Shown here piece after piece: positions 33,056 to 54,194 of a stretch of DNA of 64,000 bases; the stretch's first letter is position 1; each line of letters starts with the position of its first letter. The translations under genes and the position numbers were made by a program. A model generated the notes under the pieces. That model did not search any database and had not been told where the DNA came from. It worked only from the letters and a program-made list of their open reading frames with translations. This DNA is from a virus, in IMG/VR virus record IMGVR_UViG_3300035664_000005, positions 1-64,000 of that record, one strand, 5' to 3'.

Positions 33056-33601
33056 TCAGGAAGAGAAGAAAGGGTGGAACGGATTCCGACAGTCCGTTTT
33101 GGCGTGAGGTGTTATTTTTATTTCCCATCTAGTGTCTTTAAAAAGTTCAGAAGCGAGGTGTGCGTCTTCTCCTGACAGATACATAACACTGCGATTCATT
33201 GAACCTTGATTGATGGTTTCGTAGTAAGATCCTTCAAGCCTTCCTTCCACATATTTTACTTCTAACGCATCCATCAAAAGACGCCAATCTTCTACTTCTT
33301 CAATGCTGTTTAGAGTATTGAAATCTATATACAAACCTTTGAAGTCGTATGAGCCAAATATTTCCCTTGGGGCTTCAAATGCTATTCCTTCTGTCCCAAC
33401 ACAGATTATTGTGTCGCATTTTTCTACAAGGTCTTTTAAGGTCGCGACTGTTTGAAGACCCGCTCTTTTTGCCCACTTGATTGTGTCGTCTTTCCGCCGA
33501 TATCTAGCAAAATAAGTTTTATGCCCGTTGGCGTTCAGCGACAAGGCAAGTGATCGCCCCATTCTGCCGGGTGAAACGATACCTATGTGGTTTATCGCCA
33601 T
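33056..33601 (-). CDS. NAD(P)-binding 6-phosphogluconate/hydroxyisobutyrate dehydrogenase-like protein
   Basis: 181 residues. N-terminal Rossmann fold with GIVSPGRMGRSLALSLNANG (variant of G-x-G-x-x-G followed by M-G) and a second beta-strand ending YFARYRRKD, as in NADP-binding beta-hydroxyacid dehydrogenases; DTIICVGTEG follows. Full-length family members have about 290 residues with a helical catalytic domain, which is missing here, so it is either a free NAD-binding domain or a reduced enzyme. Last gene of the tailoring operon. Confidence 0.6.
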   Translation of the reverse strand: MAINHIGIVSPGRMGRSLALSLNANGHKTYFARYRRKDDTIKWAKRAGLQTVATLKDLVEKCDTIICVGTEGIAFEAPREIFGSYDFKGLYIDFNTLNSIEEVEDWRLLMDALEVKYVEGRLEGSYYETINQGSMNRSVMYLSGEDAHLASELFKDTRWEIKITPHAKTDCRNPFHPFFSS

Positions 33602-33888
33602 GGCGTTGACTCATCTCTCGTTTTTTGTAGCGCTCCGCTGATCGCAAGATTTTTGCCGAATGTGTTTAAAGCGTGTATCACGCCAAGCGGTTCAGGGAAT
33701 CCCAACTTTTTTGCAACAACCTCTAAGGTTTTATTTTCTATGTCCATCCAAGCGCCGAGAACCGCTTGGGCTCCTGTGGTGTTTTCGTCGTAATAGTTGT
33801 TTGCAATAATGTCTATTCCCTGTATCTCCCAAAGTTCGGGATCATGTTTGTCGGTTGTTTGTACACGGGTTATGTTTTTATTTATCAC
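33592..33888 (-). CDS. Hypothetical protein (98 aa) of the tailoring operon
   Basis: GTG start overlapping the upstream gene by 11 nt; the stop overlaps the next start by 10 nt. Contains WEIQGIDIIANNYYDENTTG and LGAWMDIENKTLEVVAKKLG. It could supply the helical domain lacking in the next protein; that is only an inference from tight overlap. Confidence 0.5.
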   Translation of the reverse strand: MINKNITRVQTTDKHDPELWEIQGIDIIANNYYDENTTGAQAVLGAWMDIENKTLEVVAKKLGFPEPLGVIHALNTFGKNLAISGALQKTRDESTPWR

Positions 33889-34699
33889 GAGATTCCTCTA
33901 TTTTTTTTGCTTGTTTATAGAGTATTACAGAAGGGGCTAGAAAGGAATCTATTCTGCTGTCTCTTTGAAAACGAGAAAAAACTTCTTTGAGTACGGATGA
34001 TTTAATTACGAAATCTTGGGGTGTGTGTCGGGAAATGTCTAATTCGTACTTTTGGCTTATGCAACGAATTGTGTCGTTTTCCTCAATTTTGGAATTTACA
34101 TAGTCTTGGTGCATTTGTTTTATTTTTTCAAAACCGACAATATGGATGTTGTCGTGATTTTGTAGAACAAAATTTGTCCACCTATTGTAGTAGTTGATTA
34201 TTCTTGTTAGGTGATAAAAATTGATTTCACCACTTGAAAGAAAATCGTGTAGTTGTGATTCATTTTCTTCTCTTTGTAGGTGTTCGCTGAAAAGCGAGGC
34301 AAGACTTTCGTATGGGTCTCGTATTGTCAGCAAAACAATCTCATTATTATTAATTGATTGTTTTGTGATTTCGGTATTGTGCAGAAGAGGCAATGGAACA
34401 TTTGCTTCCTGAAATATCCTGAGCATCAGGTTTCTGAAGGTTGTGTTCCCCTGATGGGGAAGACCATCAATATGAAATGTGTATTTAGCGTCTGATATTT
34501 TGCGAGTGAGTGTTAAATCCGATATGTGATTGTCTGATTTTAAAACAAATCTTTTAAATTCGTATCCGTTGTCCTCGGAGTGTGTTTCGGTTTTCCACAT
34601 CCCGCTACTATCTATTGGAAAATCAAAAGTCCATTCTTTTGTGTCCTTCCTAAATACCCATTCACCATGATATTTTTCTGGAACAAAATTTTCTTTCAT
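33878..34699 (-). CDS. Sulfotransferase-like P-loop protein (273 aa)
   Basis: HIDGLPHQGNTTFRNLMLRI (about 76-95) resembles the 5'-phosphosulfate-binding loop of PAPS sulfotransferases (P-x-x-G-T/N-T), and IVLLTIRDPYESLASLFSEH resembles the 3'-phosphate-binding R-D-P...S segment. Substrate unknown. It overlaps the SDR gene by ATGA. Whether PAPS is really used is uncertain. Confidence 0.6.
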   Translation of the reverse strand: MKENFVPEKYHGEWVFRKDTKEWTFDFPIDSSGMWKTETHSEDNGYEFKRFVLKSDNHISDLTLTRKISDAKYTFHIDGLPHQGNTTFRNLMLRIFQEANVPLPLLHNTEITKQSINNNEIVLLTIRDPYESLASLFSEHLQREENESQLHDFLSSGEINFYHLTRIINYYNRWTNFVLQNHDNIHIVGFEKIKQMHQDYVNSKIEENDTIRCISQKYELDISRHTPQDFVIKSSVLKEVFSRFQRDSRIDSFLAPSVILYKQAKKIEESRDK

Positions 34700-35448
34700 C
34701 TCGTATTGCTCACTCCGCCGTCAACAACAAGGGTTGATCCCAAAACATAATCTCCTGCCTGTGATGCCAAATATACAACGGCGCCAACAATGTCTTCTGG
34801 TGTTCCTGTTCGCCCAACAGGAATGTATTTTGCTGTCTCGTATGGGTAGTCGCGGGCATATTGGTTCATGTTTGATGGGAATGCGCCGGGGCATACCGCG
34901 TTTACCGATATGCCATCTTTAATGAGTTCTATAGACATTTGGCGTGTCAAATGCAGTAGTCCTGCTTTACTTGCGTGATAGCCATAGGAGTGATCTTGGT
35001 CTAACGTGAGTGCGTTAATTGATGAAATGTTGATCACTTTTGCTAAACGATTATTTAGCGAGTGCGATTTTTTTAAAGACCTATGAAACCGTTGAGTTAA
35101 AAACATCGGGGTTTTCATATTAATATCTACTGCTGTTTCCCAATTTTGTTCGGTGAAATCCTCAAAACTTTTTGCACCCGCACTACGACCAGCGTTGTTG
35201 ACGAGTATGTCTATGTGTGTTTCTTTTTCTTCTACCTGAGAAACAGCCCTATCTATTCCTTCAAGAGTTGAAAGGTCTTCTTTTATGTATGTGACACGGG
35301 TTCGTTCTTGTAACGGGTCATGTACAGAAATGTTGTAGACACGAGTACAACCGAATTTAACTAACCCCCTTGAGATCATTTCACCAATTCCGCTTGAACC
35401 ACCTGTTACAACGGCTACACGACCTTCAAGAGAAAATAGATCTTTCAT
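34696..35448 (-). CDS. Short-chain dehydrogenase/reductase (intact)
   Basis: 250 residues with all classical SDR landmarks: VTGGSSGIG (14-22), NNAG (84-87), N110, S143, and Y157-x-x-x-K161 in YGYHASKAG; C-terminal DGG motif. NAD(P)-dependent oxidation or reduction of an alcohol/ketone, often on sugars or steroids. Coupled by ATGA to both neighbours. The adjacent SDR homologue is inactive by motif. Confidence 0.9.
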   Translation of the reverse strand: MKDLFSLEGRVAVVTGGSSGIGEMISRGLVKFGCTRVYNISVHDPLQERTRVTYIKEDLSTLEGIDRAVSQVEEKETHIDILVNNAGRSAGAKSFEDFTEQNWETAVDINMKTPMFLTQRFHRSLKKSHSLNNRLAKVINISSINALTLDQDHSYGYHASKAGLLHLTRQMSIELIKDGISVNAVCPGAFPSNMNQYARDYPYETAKYIPVGRTGTPEDIVGAVVYLASQAGDYVLGSTLVVDGGVSNTR

Positions 35449-36293
35449 CCCCGAATCTCTGATACACCACCGTCTACAACAAGGTGTGCACCGACACAGT
35501 AGTCTCCCGCGCGGGAAGCAAGGTATGTGATCGCCGCAACGATGTCATCTTTGTGCCCGAGTCGTTTTGCGGGGATTCTTTGCGTTACCTGAAGTCGGTT
35601 TGCTGGATTAACTTCGTTGGGTGTCGTATTGAATAATCCAACGGTTATAGATGAGACAACTATTTTGTGACGAATGTATTGCACAGCAAATGATTTTGAT
35701 GCATGGTTTATGCCTGCGTTGCTTGAACTGAAAGCAAAGTTGGATATCTGTGGCGGGTTTATTCCGTCAACGGTAGAGATGTTGATTACTTTCCCATAAA
35801 TTTGTTCCGTTGAGATGCTTGTTCCTTCATCAGGGTTTGTTGATGCTTTTAGAAGGGGGAGAAATTTTTCTGTGAGTTTTATTGGTGCTTCTAGGTTGTA
35901 TTTGATTACTTCGTCCCAATTTTCCGAAGCGTAAAGCGAGGAATTAATGAGAATATTGAGGCTTGGCTCAAGGGCACTGATTTCGCAAAATAGTTTTTCT
36001 CGCCCCTCTTCCGTGGTTATGTCGCACTGTATTGGGATGATGTTTTTGTAAATGTTTTCAAGCCGTATTTTCTCATCTTTTTGGTATTCAGCCAAAATTG
36101 ACTCTTCGTGCGAGTATTCCAATTTGTCGTAATCATCAACTTCAATTGTTCGCGGGGTAAATGATTCTTTATCGGCGACATAGACACGAGATGCACCCTG
36201 TTCAATCAAGCCTTCGGCGATCATCCAGCCGTACCCGCTCAGTCCACCCGTTAAAAGCGCGGATCTGTTTTCTAATGAAAATAATGTGGTCAT
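35445..36293 (-). CDS. SDR-fold protein lacking the catalytic Tyr and Lys
   Basis: 282 residues, clearly homologous to the downstream SDR (same FSLENR start, same LVVDGGVSEIR end), but GGxxGIG is GGLSGYG, NNAG is INSS (116-119), the catalytic Ser is T174, and the Y-x-x-x-K pair is F188...N192 (FSSSNAG). Such changes remove the proton relay, so this is probably a non-catalytic partner or regulator of the intact SDR. Also carries an insertion at about 45-85. Confidence 0.85.
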   Translation of the reverse strand: MTTLFSLENRSALLTGGLSGYGWMIAEGLIEQGASRVYVADKESFTPRTIEVDDYDKLEYSHEESILAEYQKDEKIRLENIYKNIIPIQCDITTEEGREKLFCEISALEPSLNILINSSLYASENWDEVIKYNLEAPIKLTEKFLPLLKASTNPDEGTSISTEQIYGKVINISTVDGINPPQISNFAFSSSNAGINHASKSFAVQYIRHKIVVSSITVGLFNTTPNEVNPANRLQVTQRIPAKRLGHKDDIVAAITYLASRAGDYCVGAHLVVDGGVSEIRG

Positions 36294-36301
36294 TATCTCT
36301 C

Positions 36302-36715
36302 CTATTTCTTTTGTAGGGGAAATCTTAGTGCTTTTCTCTCGTTATGCCAGCGGGCGAGCCCATTGTTGTAGTTGTACTGTTTTTGTAGTTTTTCTTCTTT
36401 TTTGCGCTGTTGCTCGCCCAATACCATCAATGCGTGATGCCCGCTAAGGGTGATTTGGTAAACATATTTTATATATCCAAATTCTTTTGTTTTTATAAAG
36501 TCCTCAAGTCGGCTTTTCTCTAAATAGCCACACCTGACCAAAGAAAGAAGGTTCGCATCAATTCTCTTGGGGGGAACCTGATCTAAAACAAAATTTCTGT
36601 AATCTCCTGAAGTGAAAGGATTGTCTCTCCTGAACCTGCCGTAACACAAAATCCTGTAAGAACCTGAACCGTAACGCAGGTATTTGGCTGGATTGTTTAT
36701 GGGGGTATTTTTCAT
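36302..36715 (-). CDS. Winged-helix-like hypothetical protein (137 aa)
   Basis: The middle part (DANLLSLVRCGYLEKSRLED ... YVYQITLSGHHALMVL) has the helix-helix-wing pattern ending in I-T-x-x-G typical of MarR/PadR-like wings; basic C-terminus. First gene of the leftward tailoring operon; TAAATT ends 6 nt before its ATG (leaderless). Confidence 0.5.
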   Translation of the reverse strand: MKNTPINNPAKYLRYGSGSYRILCYGRFRRDNPFTSGDYRNFVLDQVPPKRIDANLLSLVRCGYLEKSRLEDFIKTKEFGYIKYVYQITLSGHHALMVLGEQQRKKEEKLQKQYNYNNGLARWHNERKALRFPLQKK

Positions 36716-36747: not shown

Positions 36748-37677
36748 ATGGATTTTGCTCTAGATTCTCACGAAATTTTGCCGTATGTTCGTGTCTATCC
36801 GAATGTGTTCCCCGACATTGAGGAAATGAAATCAATTCTGTATGAACATGAAAGAACCACCACGGAAGATCCTGAATCGCCTCATCTTTTTGAACCCTAT
36901 AGACCTTGGTACACATTCGGTCGTGTAACCGATGTGCAAAGAACCCCTGATGAATCTTCCCACGAATATATCCGTAAACAAACATATTTTTATGAACGGG
37001 TAAAACAAGTAAGAGAAGCAGTTATTGCGGATTATTGCGATAAATATAAAGTTTTTGATTTCATTAACACAGAGACATGGATTCAACAGTCTGTGAATTT
37101 GGCGGAATATTTTGATGGCGCGTCGGTTCCCGACCCGCAAATAGACGGCTTAAGTATTTCACTAAAACCAAAAGCAATGAATTACCATACGGATTTTGAA
37201 ATAAAAAAAATGTGCGAAGATTCAGATAATTTTGTGCTCACCTGTAATGTCTATTGGAATGATGATTACAAAGGCGGAGAGATTGTTTTTTTTGACTCAG
37301 ATCAATTACTTCCATATAAACCCAAACAAGGAGAAGTGCTGATTTTCCCGTCAGGTTCACCATTCTTCCCCCAAGACGGACAGGCGTTTTACCACTGTGC
37401 AAATAGTGTGTTTAAAGGCAAAAAATATTTTTCACGAAATTATTTGCAATACAAGCATGTACCGACTGAGGAAATGCGCGACGCACAGGAAGACTACCCC
37501 ACTGGTGATCGTGTGAACGGCGACCATCACTACGCTTCTCTTTTCAATCAAATGATGGACGTGAGTACGAGTAATGAAAAGAAATTCCTTGTTCACCCAA
37601 TTGCGAAAAGATTTTATAAAAAACTTGATGAGTGCATTTTGGTGAATGACTTTAGCAAAAAAGATTTTTTTCAGTAA
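36748..37677 (+). CDS. 2-oxoglutarate/Fe(II)-dependent oxygenase (prolyl-hydroxylase-like)
   Basis: 309 residues. Iron ligands H147-x-D149 (NYHTDFE) and H216 (AFYHCANSV), with R230 in FSRNYL for 2-oxoglutarate and GGEIVFFD on the central strand. Hydroxylates protein, nucleic acid or small-molecule substrates. Divergent from the tailoring operon; its end overlaps the convergent ParB-like gene by 7 nt. Confidence 0.85.
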   Translation: MDFALDSHEILPYVRVYPNVFPDIEEMKSILYEHERTTTEDPESPHLFEPYRPWYTFGRVTDVQRTPDESSHEYIRKQTYFYERVKQVREAVIADYCDKYKVFDFINTETWIQQSVNLAEYFDGASVPDPQIDGLSISLKPKAMNYHTDFEIKKMCEDSDNFVLTCNVYWNDDYKGGEIVFFDSDQLLPYKPKQGEVLIFPSGSPFFPQDGQAFYHCANSVFKGKKYFSRNYLQYKHVPTEEMRDAQEDYPTGDRVNGDHHYASLFNQMMDVSTSNEKKFLVHPIAKRFYKKLDECILVNDFSKKDFFQ

Positions 37678-38783: not shown

Positions 38784-39303
38784 TTTGTTCTCCTGTTATT
38801 GCCGTGAAATCGCATTTTTTTAGCGCCAAAACTTGATCTGTATTCCACTCGTATTGAGACAGACCCAAGTATGTGAGCGTCATTTGTTCAAGAATCCAAG
38901 CATCACATCTGTCATTGCCGTCTCCACCCGACCAGATTATCCCTGTTTTTGCTGAGATCGCTGACATTACTTCAGATTTACCTGAGTTTCCTTTTCCCGT
39001 AGCAAATTTGGCTCTACAGGTTGGAGGTATAACCACGACTGGCACTCCCAGTTCGCGTAACGCGACCCTTACAACTCCTCCAAGTTCTCCTATGGAGTGG
39101 GCTTGCGAATGTCGTGAAGCATATGAGTAGCCTTCTACTGCCACTATTTGAACACCAGCCTCTTGGGCTAGAGCCAAGATTTCGTTTCTTATTTCTAGGA
39201 GTCGTTCGGATCCTTTGTTTTTGGATTTGATGCTCGTTGTTAGACCGCCGATACTGACACCCGTGCTGGTCAGGGAGAGGTCTAAACCCATTATTTTTGC
39301 CAC
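38776..39303 (-). CDS. RuvC-like Holliday-junction resolvase
   Basis: 175 residues. RNase H fold with GLDLSLTSTG (D8), VEGYSY (E57) and GNDRCDAW (D131, D134), the four acidic ligands expected for RuvC. It cuts branched DNA during recombination or before packaging. Transcribed ahead of the ParB-like gene, both close to the small terminase gene. Confidence 0.85.
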   Translation of the reverse strand: MAKIMGLDLSLTSTGVSIGGLTTSIKSKNKGSERLLEIRNEILALAQEAGVQIVAVEGYSYASRHSQAHSIGELGGVVRVALRELGVPVVVIPPTCRAKFATGKGNSGKSEVMSAISAKTGIIWSGGDGNDRCDAWILEQMTLTYLGLSQYEWNTDQVLALKKCDFTAITGEQNG

Positions 39304-39325
39304 ATTTGTAGATTACTATATTTAT

Positions 39326-40375
39326 GTGGAAAACATAATCTTCAGTGAAAACAAGGTTGAGGTTTTGAATAAAAAAATTTTTGTTGCCATTCCTTCGTTT
39401 CAGGAAGAGGATTTGCTAAATACGGTTGACAGCATTTTTTTGAATGCTTCAAACCCGAACCGCGTAATTGTTGGCATTTGTAATCAACGAGTTGTAGACG
39501 GCGAATTTGAGTCTTTTGAATGCTACGACGATCATGTCAAAGTTATAAATGTGCGATCACCCAAGCCGATGGGATTGGGGTTTGCATATTTTGCTATCTG
39601 CCAAATGGTGCAAGACGAAGAGTATTTTATGCGGATTGATGCTGGTACGAGAATGAAACCCGACTGGGACAAAATTTTGATTGAATCCTATGAATCGGTT
39701 TGTCGCCATACGGGTAACAAAACGATTATTAGCGGTCAAATCGGTGCTTTTTATAAAACAGACGAGGAACTGAGCGCGGGTTACTACACCGATGACCTTT
39801 GGACATTTAAAGAAGGTTGCTGGTTTCAGGATTTTGCTCACCCCGAAAGCGAATATTGGGTAGATGGGCTGATAAAGCAGTTCGTAATGACCGTTTGGGA
39901 TGTTGATGAAAATAAATATAATTCAAATAAAGACTCAATAAGTAAGTTTATTTGGAACAATGAAGATAAAAATTTGGGATTTAAACAAATATGTTTTGTA
40001 AACGGTGCTTTTCATTTCTCCAAAAGTCAACTCGTAAGAGATTGCCCGCCTGACCCTAGAATGGTTTTTTGGGGCGAAGAACACCTCTTGGGTCTCAGGG
40101 CTATCACCAGAGGTTATGGGATTTACGCATTAAATATTAGCGTGCTATTTACTCTAAGTAAACCAAAGTCCTATGTTGAAGGTCAAGGCGTTTTAAATTG
40201 GAGGAATTTTAGCAACGAGACATTTGTTCAAAGCCAAAATGTTTTAGCAAAAAAAATTCTTTTAGGTGAAGAATACGGTTTGTTTGGTGCACCAAATGAA
40301 GAACTTTACCAACAGTACTTCGGTCAAATAGGACTAAAAAACGAAGACAAAGAAAAATGGATTAAAAATGATTAA
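39326..40375 (+). CDS. Glycosyltransferase (GlcNAc-transferase-like, GT-A)
   Basis: 349 residues from GTG 39326: TACTAT ends 6 nt before it. Pattern KIFVAIPSFQEEDLLNTVDS ... GICNQRV ... GLGFAYFAICQMVQDEEYFM then RIDAGTRMKPDWDK (D-A-G in the DxD position) and FVNGAFHFSKS ... FWGEEHLLGLRAIT matches the GlcNAc-transferase family of cytoplasmic glycosyltransferases. Might glycosylate a protein or modified base. A longer ATG frame to 39215 would overlap the RuvC-like gene and is not preferred. Confidence 0.8.
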   Translation: MENIIFSENKVEVLNKKIFVAIPSFQEEDLLNTVDSIFLNASNPNRVIVGICNQRVVDGEFESFECYDDHVKVINVRSPKPMGLGFAYFAICQMVQDEEYFMRIDAGTRMKPDWDKILIESYESVCRHTGNKTIISGQIGAFYKTDEELSAGYYTDDLWTFKEGCWFQDFAHPESEYWVDGLIKQFVMTVWDVDENKYNSNKDSISKFIWNNEDKNLGFKQICFVNGAFHFSKSQLVRDCPPDPRMVFWGEEHLLGLRAITRGYGIYALNISVLFTLSKPKSYVEGQGVLNWRNFSNETFVQSQNVLAKKILLGEEYGLFGAPNEELYQQYFGQIGLKNEDKEKWIKND

Positions 40376-43850: not shown

Positions 43851-44621
43851 CTATCTAAGATCAAAGTAGTAGGAAGTTTCGTTCCACTGTTTTATTTTTG
43901 GTTGTTCTAAAAGTGTTTTCATTTCTTCTAAATAACTTTTACTTTTTGCCCCCTCGGAGTGAAGGGTATTTGTGTAGTGACCAATTACTGCTCTCCTGAG
44001 AATTATCCCTTTAGGCTCTAACGCACAGTGAATTAGATTGCCGTGCCAAATCAAAACATCTCCTTTTTTGGCGAGGAAAGTAAAATGTTCGTGATCGTTG
44101 TGCGATTCAATTTCTTTTGTAAGACGTGGGTTTTGCCAACGACCGTTCACTATTTCTTGGTCTTTACCCATGTAAACCGCTTGTTTGTCAAATTTCCATT
44201 TGTGGGATTTAGCAATTAACTGGAATGGTCCTGCTTCCATAGTGACATCTTCTGCTGCAACCCACGCACCAATGTAGTTATTGTACGCAATCGGATTAGA
44301 CAGCATTGAATCTTGATGCCATGGTTTTTGGCTGGTTGTTCCCCAAGTGTCAACACGATGTAGTGCTACAGGTAATTCTAAATCTATAAAAAATTGATTT
44401 ATTGAAGAATGACACATTATGTCCATCACTTCAGGGTGGTTCAAGTATTCGTGAGGATCGTTCCCAGATTCCATTGACCAACCAAAATTGTTTCCATGTT
44501 GGTCAAAATTATTTGAGTGTTCCTTGTTCCAACTGTCAATATAGCGATCTATCAGATCATCGCTTATGGCTTTTTCTAGTACCACATAGCCATTCTCTTT
44601 AAAAAATTCAACATTGTTCAT
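43851..44621 (-). CDS. PhyH-family 2OG-Fe(II) dioxygenase
   Basis: 256 residues. KPWHQDS gives H102-x-D104, LIHCA gives H198, and RRAVIGHY supplies the 2-oxoglutarate-binding Arg near 210. Phytanoyl-CoA-dioxygenase-like enzymes hydroxylate small molecules, including antibiotics and modified nucleosides. Follows the gene ending at 44628 by 6 nt. Confidence 0.85.
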   Translation of the reverse strand: MNNVEFFKENGYVVLEKAISDDLIDRYIDSWNKEHSNNFDQHGNNFGWSMESGNDPHEYLNHPEVMDIMCHSSINQFFIDLELPVALHRVDTWGTTSQKPWHQDSMLSNPIAYNNYIGAWVAAEDVTMEAGPFQLIAKSHKWKFDKQAVYMGKDQEIVNGRWQNPRLTKEIESHNDHEHFTFLAKKGDVLIWHGNLIHCALEPKGIILRRAVIGHYTNTLHSEGAKSKSYLEEMKTLLEQPKIKQWNETSYYFDLR

Positions 44622-48240: not shown

Positions 48241-50169
48241 TCATTTGATCGGACATGCACCTGTTGCACAGTCATCAAGCGATAATTCTGAACCTGTTGC
48301 CTGACTTAACGGCAAAGATGGATCAATTTTTTTCACAAGTGCATCATAATCGGCTTGGCTGATCTGTTCATATGGAGGAAGCGGGAAGTTGTGGTCTGCG
48401 TGTAGGAGAAATGATACCGATTTGACACCAGTGTCATAATTTTTTGACAACCATTCTTTGATTGATTCAAGTTCTTCTTTTCTATAATAAACAGTTACAG
48501 ACACGGCGTTGTCCGCCCACTCTGTCTGCATTTTTTTGACCCATTCAAGTTGTTCTACTGCCGTCATGTTCTCGGCGAGAACCGCATTATCTGGTGACTT
48601 GCATGGGAACTCAACGACATAGCGTGAGTGGTCTTCTCTGCCGTCAATACCGATATCCCAAACAACCTTGTGTCCTCTCGCACGCAAGCCTGTCACAAGG
48701 GCGTCAGACGCACCAAAACGCACCCTACGGATGTAGAACGGCGCGAATGCGGGATGAATGCCCGGAGTGATACCGGGGAGTAAGGAGAGCGTCCCTGACG
48801 GTTGGACAGTGGTAAGTCTGACGGAACGAGGGAAGCCTTTTTCCTTTGAGTAATACATGTCAAATTCGTCTAGGTGTCTGTAAGCCTCATCTAGCCAAGA
48901 AACTTGCTCTGCTGAAGCCTGTAAAACGCCAGAGATGCTTTGTCCTAGTCGTGCGTTTTTCGCAACGATTGCGTTTGTTTTTGCATAAGGGTAGGCAAGA
49001 CGGGTGATCTGTTTTTGAACCATGTAAAGAAGTTCGGATATTTCTTTTAATTGTTTGATGTCGCAGATATTGGGTAGGAATATGGTTGAAAGATTGCATG
49101 ACTCTCCATCGCCTAAACCAATTTCGGCACATGGGTTGAAACCTTCAATGGTTTTATCTGCTCGTTCTTCTTTAAGTCTTCCGAACTTGCGGGCGAGACG
49201 GCGATTTACAAGACCGTAAGGTTCGCCACCACCCGTATAGCCCTTCCATAGTTCGGGCATGATGTGGTCGTAGTAGTCGGCATAGATGCTGTTGTTTGAG
49301 TTGGCTCGGTAACCGGGGATGTCTCCCGAAGCCCAATTTTTTGCTCGCAAAAACAGAACATCGTCGGGGTCGCCGATAGCGATCTGTGCGGAGCGTCGTG
49401 ATGAGCCTGAGACAACCACACGACCGATTATGTTGCAAATGTCTAGGACATCAATTGAGCGAAGTTTCTTTCCCTCTCTTGCTTCCATCACTCGGCAGAT
49501 GTCTGCAATCCCGTCCACCAATGCGCCGGGTCCGCTTGCTGTGCCTCCAAATGTCTTGAGGGGTGCACCAAATTCTCGGATAAGAATCGTTGAGTATGAG
49601 AATGATTTACCTGTATCAAAATATGACTTCAATACGCTGTGTAATAGTCTTCGCCAACCTTGACGAGAATCAGGGACAATAATGTCTGCGTCGTTTGAAC
49701 GCTCGTGAGTGATTTTTACATTAGGGAGAACCTTTGGAAGATCGTGAATTTTTGCTCGTTCCACCGAGAATCCGACACCACCGCCGAGCATGAGGTGGTC
49801 AAAAAGAAATTCAAAATCTTCTACCTTTTCTATGTTTACGAAATAGCAGTTATTGAGCGAGGCGGCGTTGAATTGTTTGATGAGTGGAGTTCCGAGTTGC
49901 CAAAGAGCACGACCCGAGAATGATCCACGCAGGTTGAAGACATGATCAAAAAGTTTTTCTGCTTGAGTTTTGGTGAGCGGAGTTCCAATGTCTATGGCTC
50001 CGTTAACACAGCGTTGAACGGTTTCTAGCCAAGTTTCGTTGCGATTAAGGTCTTCAATGCGTCGCGAATATGTGCGAAGGTATACAACTTCGCCTAGCCC
50101 ATTAAATCCCCAAGGAGGTGTCTGAGTCTTGTATTGGTCAACAAATTCTTGGGATAGGTGAGCGGTCAT
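48241..50169 (-). CDS. nrdJ: Adenosylcobalamin-dependent (class II) ribonucleotide reductase
   Basis: 642 residues; ATG 50169 behind GAGG. Landmarks of monomeric RTPR: NNCYFV (N-terminal redox C),  NPCAEIGLGDGESCNLS with the thiyl Cys and the second redox Cys 11 residues later, QPSGTLSLLPGITPGIHPAF, and the C-terminal pair CATGAC. It makes dNTPs from NTPs using vitamin B12, without needing oxygen and without a second subunit. Phages carry it to sustain dNTP supply; it depends on cobalamin in the host. Confidence 0.95.
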   Translation of the reverse strand: MTAHLSQEFVDQYKTQTPPWGFNGLGEVVYLRTYSRRIEDLNRNETWLETVQRCVNGAIDIGTPLTKTQAEKLFDHVFNLRGSFSGRALWQLGTPLIKQFNAASLNNCYFVNIEKVEDFEFLFDHLMLGGGVGFSVERAKIHDLPKVLPNVKITHERSNDADIIVPDSRQGWRRLLHSVLKSYFDTGKSFSYSTILIREFGAPLKTFGGTASGPGALVDGIADICRVMEAREGKKLRSIDVLDICNIIGRVVVSGSSRRSAQIAIGDPDDVLFLRAKNWASGDIPGYRANSNNSIYADYYDHIMPELWKGYTGGGEPYGLVNRRLARKFGRLKEERADKTIEGFNPCAEIGLGDGESCNLSTIFLPNICDIKQLKEISELLYMVQKQITRLAYPYAKTNAIVAKNARLGQSISGVLQASAEQVSWLDEAYRHLDEFDMYYSKEKGFPRSVRLTTVQPSGTLSLLPGITPGIHPAFAPFYIRRVRFGASDALVTGLRARGHKVVWDIGIDGREDHSRYVVEFPCKSPDNAVLAENMTAVEQLEWVKKMQTEWADNAVSVTVYYRKEELESIKEWLSKNYDTGVKSVSFLLHADHNFPLPPYEQISQADYDALVKKIDPSLPLSQATGSELSLDDCATGACPIK

Positions 50170-50243
50170 TACGTCCTCTTTCGGCGCATAGGGCAATATG
50201 GGTAAAGAACCATATTACAGCACCCCGCATTTTCAGTAAAATC

Positions 50244-51100: not shown

Positions 51101-51589
51101 ATGAAGACATCTTTAATAACCCCGCCAACGGTAAGGAACCTAGAAGAAGCAAGAGAACAATGTCTTGAATACGACGCGGTTTTGACTGCGGGTCCGTATC
51201 GCGATGAGGTTAGAAACTTCAATCACCCTATTCACAAAGTCGTTGAATTTAGCGACACAATGTTTGAGGAGCACGGCGGACCGACATATGAGGACATCGT
51301 TGAACTCGTAGAGTTTGGTGTAGGCGTCCCAAAATTGTTGGTGCATTGTCACGCGGGTATTTCCCGTTCAACAGCAACAGCATGGGGAGTGGCGATAGCA
51401 AACGGTAACGATCCGTTAGAAGCATTTCTATACCTTCAAGATAAACACCCTGAAGAGAAAGGGTTTTTTAATCAAGGAAAACGACCATTCGCACCGAATA
51501 TCTTGATCGTCAAACATTTGGATAAGTACTTTAATCTTGGTACGACACTCTTGGAAATTCGTCATAAGCATTCCGAATCAGGTTGGTAA
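51101..51589 (+). CDS. Dual-specificity/tyrosine phosphatase-like protein
   Basis: 162 residues from ATG 51101. HCHAGISRS at 82-90 is the C-x5-R active site (nucleophile C83, R89) of cysteine phosphatases; D52 in EFSDTMFEE could be the general acid. It would remove phosphate from protein, nucleotide or sugar phosphates. SD AAAGAGA. Leads the 51.1-54.2 kb rightward cassette. Confidence 0.8.
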   Translation: MKTSLITPPTVRNLEEAREQCLEYDAVLTAGPYRDEVRNFNHPIHKVVEFSDTMFEEHGGPTYEDIVELVEFGVGVPKLLVHCHAGISRSTATAWGVAIANGNDPLEAFLYLQDKHPEEKGFFNQGKRPFAPNILIVKHLDKYFNLGTTLLEIRHKHSESGW

Positions 51590-51593
51590 AGTA

Positions 51594-52565
51594 ATGAAAG
51601 TTTTTTGGAACGAAAACTACACATCCATCAAATATGATTTTGATACATCAAGAAAATCTGACGATATTGTCAATTTGATTAGCAAAAAAGTTTTGGAAAC
51701 CCCTGCAAAAGTTCGTGTATTGCAGGATGTCCCAACAATAGAGATAGTTGACCCCGAAAAGGCAACCGACATCTCAAAGACTGAACAACTAATTAAAAGA
51801 TGGTTGAGTCCTCAATATGTTGAGGCATTGAAAACAAACAACGACTCACGGCTATCGCAGAGTCAAGGTTTTGAATGGTGTTCAAACACTTACAAGTTTG
51901 CGCGAGCACATACACATGGACTGATCGCATCAGTTGATGAAGTCTTGGCAAACGGGGGGAGAAGCGGAAGCCTTTCTTCAGGTTTGCATCACGCATCAAA
52001 AACTGGTGGTGCAGGGTTTTGTACGATCAACGGCATAGCACTGTCAGCAATTTACGCATATGAACAAGGTCTTGAACCAATAGTTTTAGATTTTGACGCA
52101 CATTGCGGTGGTGGCACTATGGACTTCTTGAAAACCTTCAACGGGGTTTTACAAACCCAAAACAAGATTTTTGGAAAATCAACACCTCCGATCCGTCACA
52201 TTGATTTATCAACTAACTACTTTGACGAATACGACATTGAAGTTGATGAAACTTGGGCAAACTTACATGTTCTTGATTGGGAAGAAGATTATTTAGAAGA
52301 AATACAAAAATCCCTCTCATTAGCGGAGCCGTTTATGACTGATAAAACTATATTTATCTACAATGCAGGGATTGACCCGATTGGTTCACATGAGATAGAC
52401 GAAGAAGTTATAGCGCAACGGGAGAAGATTGTTTCGGAGTTCATCGGCGGTCACAAGGCTATCTTTGCGTTAGCGGGTGGATATTCGGATATATCAACAA
52501 CAAGAGAAGATGTAGCAAAAATGCACCTCAAAACGATTTACGGTTGGTCATGGCAGACGAAATAA
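51594..52565 (+). CDS. Histone-deacetylase/acetylpolyamine-amidohydrolase fold protein
   Basis: 323 residues from ATG 51594. All active-site groups of the arginase/deacetylase superfamily are present: LHHAS (H132, H133), DFDAHCGGGT with zinc ligands D168 and H170, D261 in YNAGIDPIGSH, and the catalytic-Tyr motif GGYS (Y297). These enzymes remove acetyl or other acyl groups from lysine or polyamines. Unusual for a phage. Its 4-nt gap to the phosphatase and 16-nt overlap with the next gene suggest one transcript. Confidence 0.88.
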   Translation: MKVFWNENYTSIKYDFDTSRKSDDIVNLISKKVLETPAKVRVLQDVPTIEIVDPEKATDISKTEQLIKRWLSPQYVEALKTNNDSRLSQSQGFEWCSNTYKFARAHTHGLIASVDEVLANGGRSGSLSSGLHHASKTGGAGFCTINGIALSAIYAYEQGLEPIVLDFDAHCGGGTMDFLKTFNGVLQTQNKIFGKSTPPIRHIDLSTNYFDEYDIEVDETWANLHVLDWEEDYLEEIQKSLSLAEPFMTDKTIFIYNAGIDPIGSHEIDEEVIAQREKIVSEFIGGHKAIFALAGGYSDISTTREDVAKMHLKTIYGWSWQTK

Positions 52566-53636: not shown

Positions 53637-54194
53637 ATGTCCAACCCGTACCTGCCGTTCATTTACTTAACAAATTTTCTTTCCGCAAATACTTTTCAAG
53701 AAATTCTTATTCAGGCTAAATCCTCTGAGGGAATGTCATCCGAGCAAACCCCACATTTAATGAATCTTGCGAATGTCAACACTTTGGATGTTCAATCACA
53801 GATCCGCAATATATACCCTCGTTACCATCAAAACGCAGGGCTCAAAATAAAGGGCGGAAATGTCCTTGTTTTTTCCGACAACCGAGGCATGGATGTCCAT
53901 CAAGACAATGTGCCCAACAAAGACTATCCCAACGATCCAGATGTTGGCTTCAAACCTAATGCGTCTGCTATCTACTATCTGAATGATGATTACGAAGGAG
54001 GGGAGATCTGTTTCACGACAGAGCGTCCTAGTGAACCGCAATCATCAACAGATAATCCAAATCTCAAAAATTTGTTCACTCTGAAACCGCAACCAAATTC
54101 GTGCGTGTTTTTTGATGCTTCGCTGTGGCATTGGGTTAGACCTGTAACCAACGGCAAACGGTTCTCTTCAACATTCTTTTTACTAGTTGAATAA
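53637..54194 (+). CDS. 2OG-Fe(II) oxygenase (prolyl-hydroxylase-like)
   Basis: 185 residues. H88-x-D90 (DVHQDN), H165 (LWHWVRPV) and R175 (GKRFSSTFFL) with GGEICF on the central strand. Same architecture as the 309-aa enzyme at 36748 but lacking its N-terminal extension. Starts 1 nt after the FkbM gene. Confidence 0.82.
   Translation: MSNPYLPFIYLTNFLSANTFQEILIQAKSSEGMSSEQTPHLMNLANVNTLDVQSQIRNIYPRYHQNAGLKIKGGNVLVFSDNRGMDVHQDNVPNKDYPNDPDVGFKPNASAIYYLNDDYEGGEICFTTERPSEPQSSTDNPNLKNLFTLKPQPNSCVFFDASLWHWVRPVTNGKRFSSTFFLLVE

Follow-up and report, generated by a model that had tools for sequence, protein, structure and literature searches.

Pseudoenzymes are well studied in eukaryotes, and phage genomes are generally believed to face pressure to lose genes without a use. 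To our knowledge, pseudoenzymes kept by phages have rarely been described. Among SDR proteins, the BbsCD system of bacterial toluene degradation is said to combine an SDR pseudoenzyme with an active SDR, both made from adjacent genes. Its PDB entry, 7PCS, carries the title 'heterotetrameric SDR family member BbsCD', and the primary description (von Horsten et al., doi 10.1111/febs.16216) is cited in PMC10818641. A literature search for SDR pseudoenzyme heteromers and phage pseudoenzymes gave nothing directly relevant beyond this citation, and among the literature searched we saw no previous description of an SDR pseudoenzyme from a virus.

Here we describe a phage locus with a comparable gene pair. 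The window, i.e. the whole stretch of DNA that was analysed, covers the first 64,000 bases of a virus record that is 100,945 bases long. Its minus strand carries two SDR genes in head-to-tail order, with the copy that lost its catalytic residues (the dead SDR) upstream and the active SDR downstream.

The SDR pair and its accessory module

The features of the locus are as follows.

33056-33601, minus strand: short Rossmann NAD(P)-binding protein (F420_oxidored / NAD_binding_2)
33592-33888, minus strand: P98, a conserved 98-aa protein found only on contigs with the module or cut inside it
33878-34699, minus strand: optional module member with sulfotransferase-like motifs recognised by eye
34696-35448, minus strand: canonical classical SDR (N110-S143-Y157-K161, NNAG), RhlG-like, 250 aa
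35445-35448, minus strand: ATGA stop/start overlap of the dead and active SDR genes, kept in all lineages
35445-36293, minus strand: dead SDR homologue (T174/F188/N192, NSSL), 282 aa, ATG start
36302-36715, minus strand: 137-aa protein at the same locus, not counted in the module
36748-37677, plus strand: 2OG-Fe(II) oxygenase-like protein, divergently transcribed; occurs where the SDR pair does and is missing where the pair is missing

From IMG/VR we distinguished four lineages of the dead SDR, namely W/L004 (W being the window's own sequence), L005/L006, L007-L010 and L011-L013. The ATGA overlap and an adjoining active SDR were found in every dead-SDR locus checked, and the dead SDR never occurred without the active one wherever a contig spans both. 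Adjacent genes for a pseudo and an active SDR, as in BbsCD, were thus seen in every lineage, and the overlap presumably couples the translation of the two genes. Searching the virus record with the dead copy recovered no SDRs beyond the pair.

We fetched 44 relatives through the conserved neighbouring ParB-like gene. The 2OG oxygenase-like protein, the dead SDR, the active SDR, P98 and the short NAD-binding protein were all present or all absent in these relatives, allowing for contig ends. The ParB-like gene lies on one side of the module and a DNA methyltransferase gene on the other, and sister phages without it miss all five genes as a block. Neither an SDR nor P98 was found in ten cassette-lacking records (0.88 Mb), and the same SDR query matched six of six module carriers. 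Remote SDRs and contigs cut within the module aside, scans with the dead copy, the active copy and P98 gave the same contigs. In comparisons of W with the L011/L053 type, the most conserved module members were the dead SDR (76%) and P98 (73%), with the other four at 48-54%.

The P98 family was not found in Pfam, PHROGs or PDB. The NAD-binding protein, about 180 aa long, matches 6-phosphogluconate dehydrogenase-like families only in their N-terminal Rossmann part, does not have the C-terminal half of the F420_oxidored / NAD_binding_2 families and may be non-catalytic when alone. The sulfotransferase-like protein displays a P-loop-like GLPHQGNTTF motif and an RDPYES motif, and searches of Pfam and PDB gave no match; its gene is present in W and L053 and absent in L005, L047, L050 and L051. 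The gene for the 137-aa protein occurs also in phages without the module and is relocated in one lineage. A link of the module to anti-phage defence was considered and rejected, as PADLOC matched just the DNA methyltransferase among the genes tested.

The host of the virus is likely actinobacterial, since the window encodes a WhiB protein (PF02467, 40876-41223, plus strand) and whiB has been taken as a marker gene for phages of actinobacteria (PMC6802176). No close relative was found among the named reference phages searched. The phage is rich in accessory genes: besides WhiB and the oxygenase of the module, the window contains a B12-type ribonucleotide reductase (48241-50196, minus strand), PhyH-like and further 2OG oxygenases (43851-44621, minus strand; 53637-54194, plus strand) and a GlcNAc-type glycosyltransferase (39215-40375, plus strand). 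A histone-deacetylase-like protein is encoded at 51537-52565, plus strand (PF00850, 6e-19).

Lost and kept residues of the dead SDR

The first-pass annotation had proposed that in the dead SDR the catalytic Ser, Tyr and Lys are replaced by Thr174, Phe188 and Asn192, that NNAG is lost and that the ends of the fold are conserved, and all of this was confirmed. The three substitutions appeared in the same register against the neighbouring SDR, RhlG (2b4q) and about 60 SDRs. In the alignment with the neighbouring SDR, the NNAG position reads NSSL and is followed by a deletion of about 10 residues, which the annotation had not mentioned. TGxxxGxG and the C-terminal AGDY...VDGG are both present, and the fourth residue of the tetrad, Asn, is kept as N133. 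From strand b5 to strand b6, residues 174-211 of the dead copy align with residues 143-180 of the active copy without any indel, which makes the register of the catalytic residues firm. We rejected a misalignment or a shifted Y-x-x-x-K (HASK, 197-200), as HASK aligns to HLTR/K of the active copy and there are no b5-b6 indels.

The active SDR possesses TGxxxGxG, NNAG and the full N-S-Y-K tetrad in all four phage lineages. The dead SDR lacks the catalytic Ser and Tyr-x3-Lys in all four and still matches the SDR family profiles (PF13561, 4e-21; PF00106, 3e-19). An identical protein in L004 and the same substitutions in three diverged lineages argue against chance or sequencing error, and we infer that the dead SDR has no catalytic activity. 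An insertion of 19 residues at about positions 51-69 (about 36087-36143), in the variable loop after b2, is restricted to the W/L004 lineage.

The AF2 model of the dead SDR, based on 53 homologues, displayed a complete SDR fold (pLDDT 90.8, pTM 0.90), which is partly imposed by the ordinary SDRs that form most of the alignment rows. A run with four sequences reached pLDDT 48 and was not used. The best PDB match of the model was RhlG (Z 32.7); many FabG-like enzymes were also recovered, and chain B of 7PCS (BbsD) matched with Z 31.0.

Conservation and origin of the dead SDR

The dead SDR of L004 is identical to that of W, and those of L005/L006, L007-L010 and L011-L013 are 86%, 88% and 76% identical to it. 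Thr, Phe and Asn at the catalytic positions and NSSL are invariant in the four lineages, and the reading frame is open in every one of them. Pairwise dN/dS was 0.04-0.11, with dS above 1 and thus near-saturated. Recent decay is ruled out by these dN/dS values together with the invariant dead residues. The retention of a pseudo-enzyme beside its active homologue, as the earlier annotation had claimed, is therefore borne out: the gene is constrained and overlaps its partner by ATGA in every lineage, and the relatives show neither an intact Y-x-x-x-K nor signs of recent decay.

Between W and L011 the dead copy was identical at 190/251 positions (76%) and the active copy at 124/249 (50-51%; p=2e-9), and between W and L007 the values were 231/263 (88%) and 183/250 (73%; p=3e-5). 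For W and L005 the order was slightly reversed, with 229/250 (92%) for the active and 227/263 (86%) for the dead copy (p=0.07). As the dead copy is conserved at least as carefully as the working one, it very probably does a real job. The active copies of W are 92% identical to L005 and 73% to L007, whereas for the dead copies the two distances are nearly the same (86-88%); active copies could possibly have been exchanged between lineages.

Loss of the catalytic residues seems to be rare among related proteins. Tyr was kept in all but two of about 50 other readable viral SDRs and Lys in all, in a survey that started from an intact glycine motif and favours normal enzymes. One viral SDR (L111:1501-2133) displays F-x-x-x-K with Ser kept and another (L097:261-917) S-x-x-x-K with Ser changed to Ala; both are possible further viral SDR pseudoenzymes. 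S/Y/K were kept in all of about 30 cellular relatives, one of which (L148) is a short, doubtful extraction. A scan of genome contigs and about 700 actinobacterial and proteobacterial genomes, which is a partial sampling, recovered no cellular SDR of the dead form, and acquisition of a ready-made dead SDR from a cellular source was rejected at that sampling. Among the neighbours of the cellular SDR relatives, no clear substrate was found.

In a tree with sparse cellular sampling, the dead clade (100/100) joined the phage active copies with 99/99 support. With more cellular sequences, the actinobacterial SDR L137 joined the dead and active phage copies, with weaker support. The dead SDR thus appears to be a paralogue of the phage active SDR. 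The stem of the dead clade is long (1.4-2.1 changes per site) and its inner branches are short, a pattern that suggests one episode of fast change with constraint afterwards.

Possible role and comparison with known SDRs

We favour the reading that the dead SDR, as a non-catalytic subunit, forms a complex with the product of the overlapping gene, the active SDR, in an accessory oxidoreductase module, and give it a probability of about 0.55, based on the linkage, the ATGA overlap, the paralogy and the BbsCD precedent. Ser, Tyr, Lys and the NNAG loop would have been lost once in a paralogue of the active SDR, before the known lineages split, and the paralogue would have been under strong purifying selection ever since. 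The dead subunit would assemble with the active SDR and either stabilise it or shape its substrate specificity. We infer that the two proteins hetero-oligomerise, and the earlier suggestion that a structural subunit forms part of a heteromeric enzyme, or that the protein senses a ligand, seems plausible. A simple scaffold with a tightly co-evolving interface fits less well, as helices aF and aG are more variable in the active copy (14/25 and 15/32 identical between W and L011) than in the dead copy (22/25 and 30/32).

The unusual conservation of the b5-aF pocket loop (8/11 in the dead vs 2/11 in the active copy, p=0.03) is a second point that does not suit a simple scaffold. Together with the equally unusual conservation of b3-aD (24/26 vs 9/26), it hints at the binding of a ligand or of another partner. 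The dead SDR could thus be a sensor whose conserved pocket takes up a metabolite or cofactor and which regulates the active SDR or some other module enzyme, and the retained D41 and D91 positions and the TGxxxGxG of three of the four lineages would agree with such a role. However, the protein has no fused regulatory or DNA-binding domain, and in L007-L010 the first Gly of the motif is Cys (TCGLTGYG), so dinucleotide binding is not essential in that lineage. We consider the sensor unlikely.

Halohydrin dehalogenases are SDR folds with changed chemistry, and the active-site region of the dead SDR is invariant in sequence despite the loss of the canonical residues, which would suit a non-hydride reaction in a remodelled site (T174, D176, N179, Q182, N185, N192). 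We find this quite improbable, as no replacement catalytic set can be recognised and H-A-S-K, which lines up with H-L-T-R/K in the active copy, is ordinary aF sequence. The surface of the dead copy is more conserved than that of the active copy, as expected with an invariant partner, and close cellular SDR relatives occur in actinobacteria (L137). A subunit or inhibitor of a host target, e.g. a host SDR, in place of the phage's own SDR is nevertheless very doubtful, given that the dead gene is strictly linked to the phage SDR gene, which it overlaps, and to the remaining module genes. A decaying copy or a translational leader without function at the protein level, compatible with the upstream position of the dead gene and the overlap of its stop with the active start, is contradicted by the selection data, the open frames and the invariant dead residues and can practically be dismissed.

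Beyond the favoured non-catalytic subunit, we tentatively consider a more speculative idea, possible but on the unlikely side, in which the duplicated dehydrogenase now serves solely as a non-catalytic protein. An invariant partner or a ligand, which may come from the host, would be bound by its conserved pocket and surfaces, and the phage would use this pseudoenzyme to control how specific an oxidoreductase pathway is or how it is assembled. Two small overlapping genes, four lineages and sister phages without the module offer a clean test of whether the active SDR needs a dead subunit.

RhlG-like classical SDRs, namely P. aeruginosa RhlG (2b4q) and its counterparts from actinobacteria and proteobacteria (L137, L149-L160), are closest in sequence and fold and show identities of about 27-39% with the dead copy. 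They share with it the Ser-to-Tyr spacing of 14 but keep NNAG and S/Y/K in all cases checked. Compared through identity, length and annotation, UniProt A0A6J5Q7F5 from an uncultured Caudovirales phage is 67% identical to the dead SDR over the full length and has 251 aa, as the L011 variant. Its record describes a normal dehydrogenase ('FabG Dehydrogenases with different specificities'), and such 'FabG' annotations in phages can conceal non-enzymes.

The phage pair resembles BbsCD in its adjacent pseudo and active SDR genes and differs in its setting, a phage accessory module in place of bacterial toluene degradation. For the phage active SDR, RhlG is a better match (E 1e-39) than BbsD (E 7e-25). 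The phage pairing may have arisen independently of BbsCD: in a tree of phage and RhlG-like SDRs, BbsC and BbsD aside, the dead copy falls together with its active partner and with one SDR from an actinobacterium. Judging from the sequences, the phage pseudoenzyme is real, constrained and paired with an active paralogue, and a pairing of this kind is already known from BbsCD.
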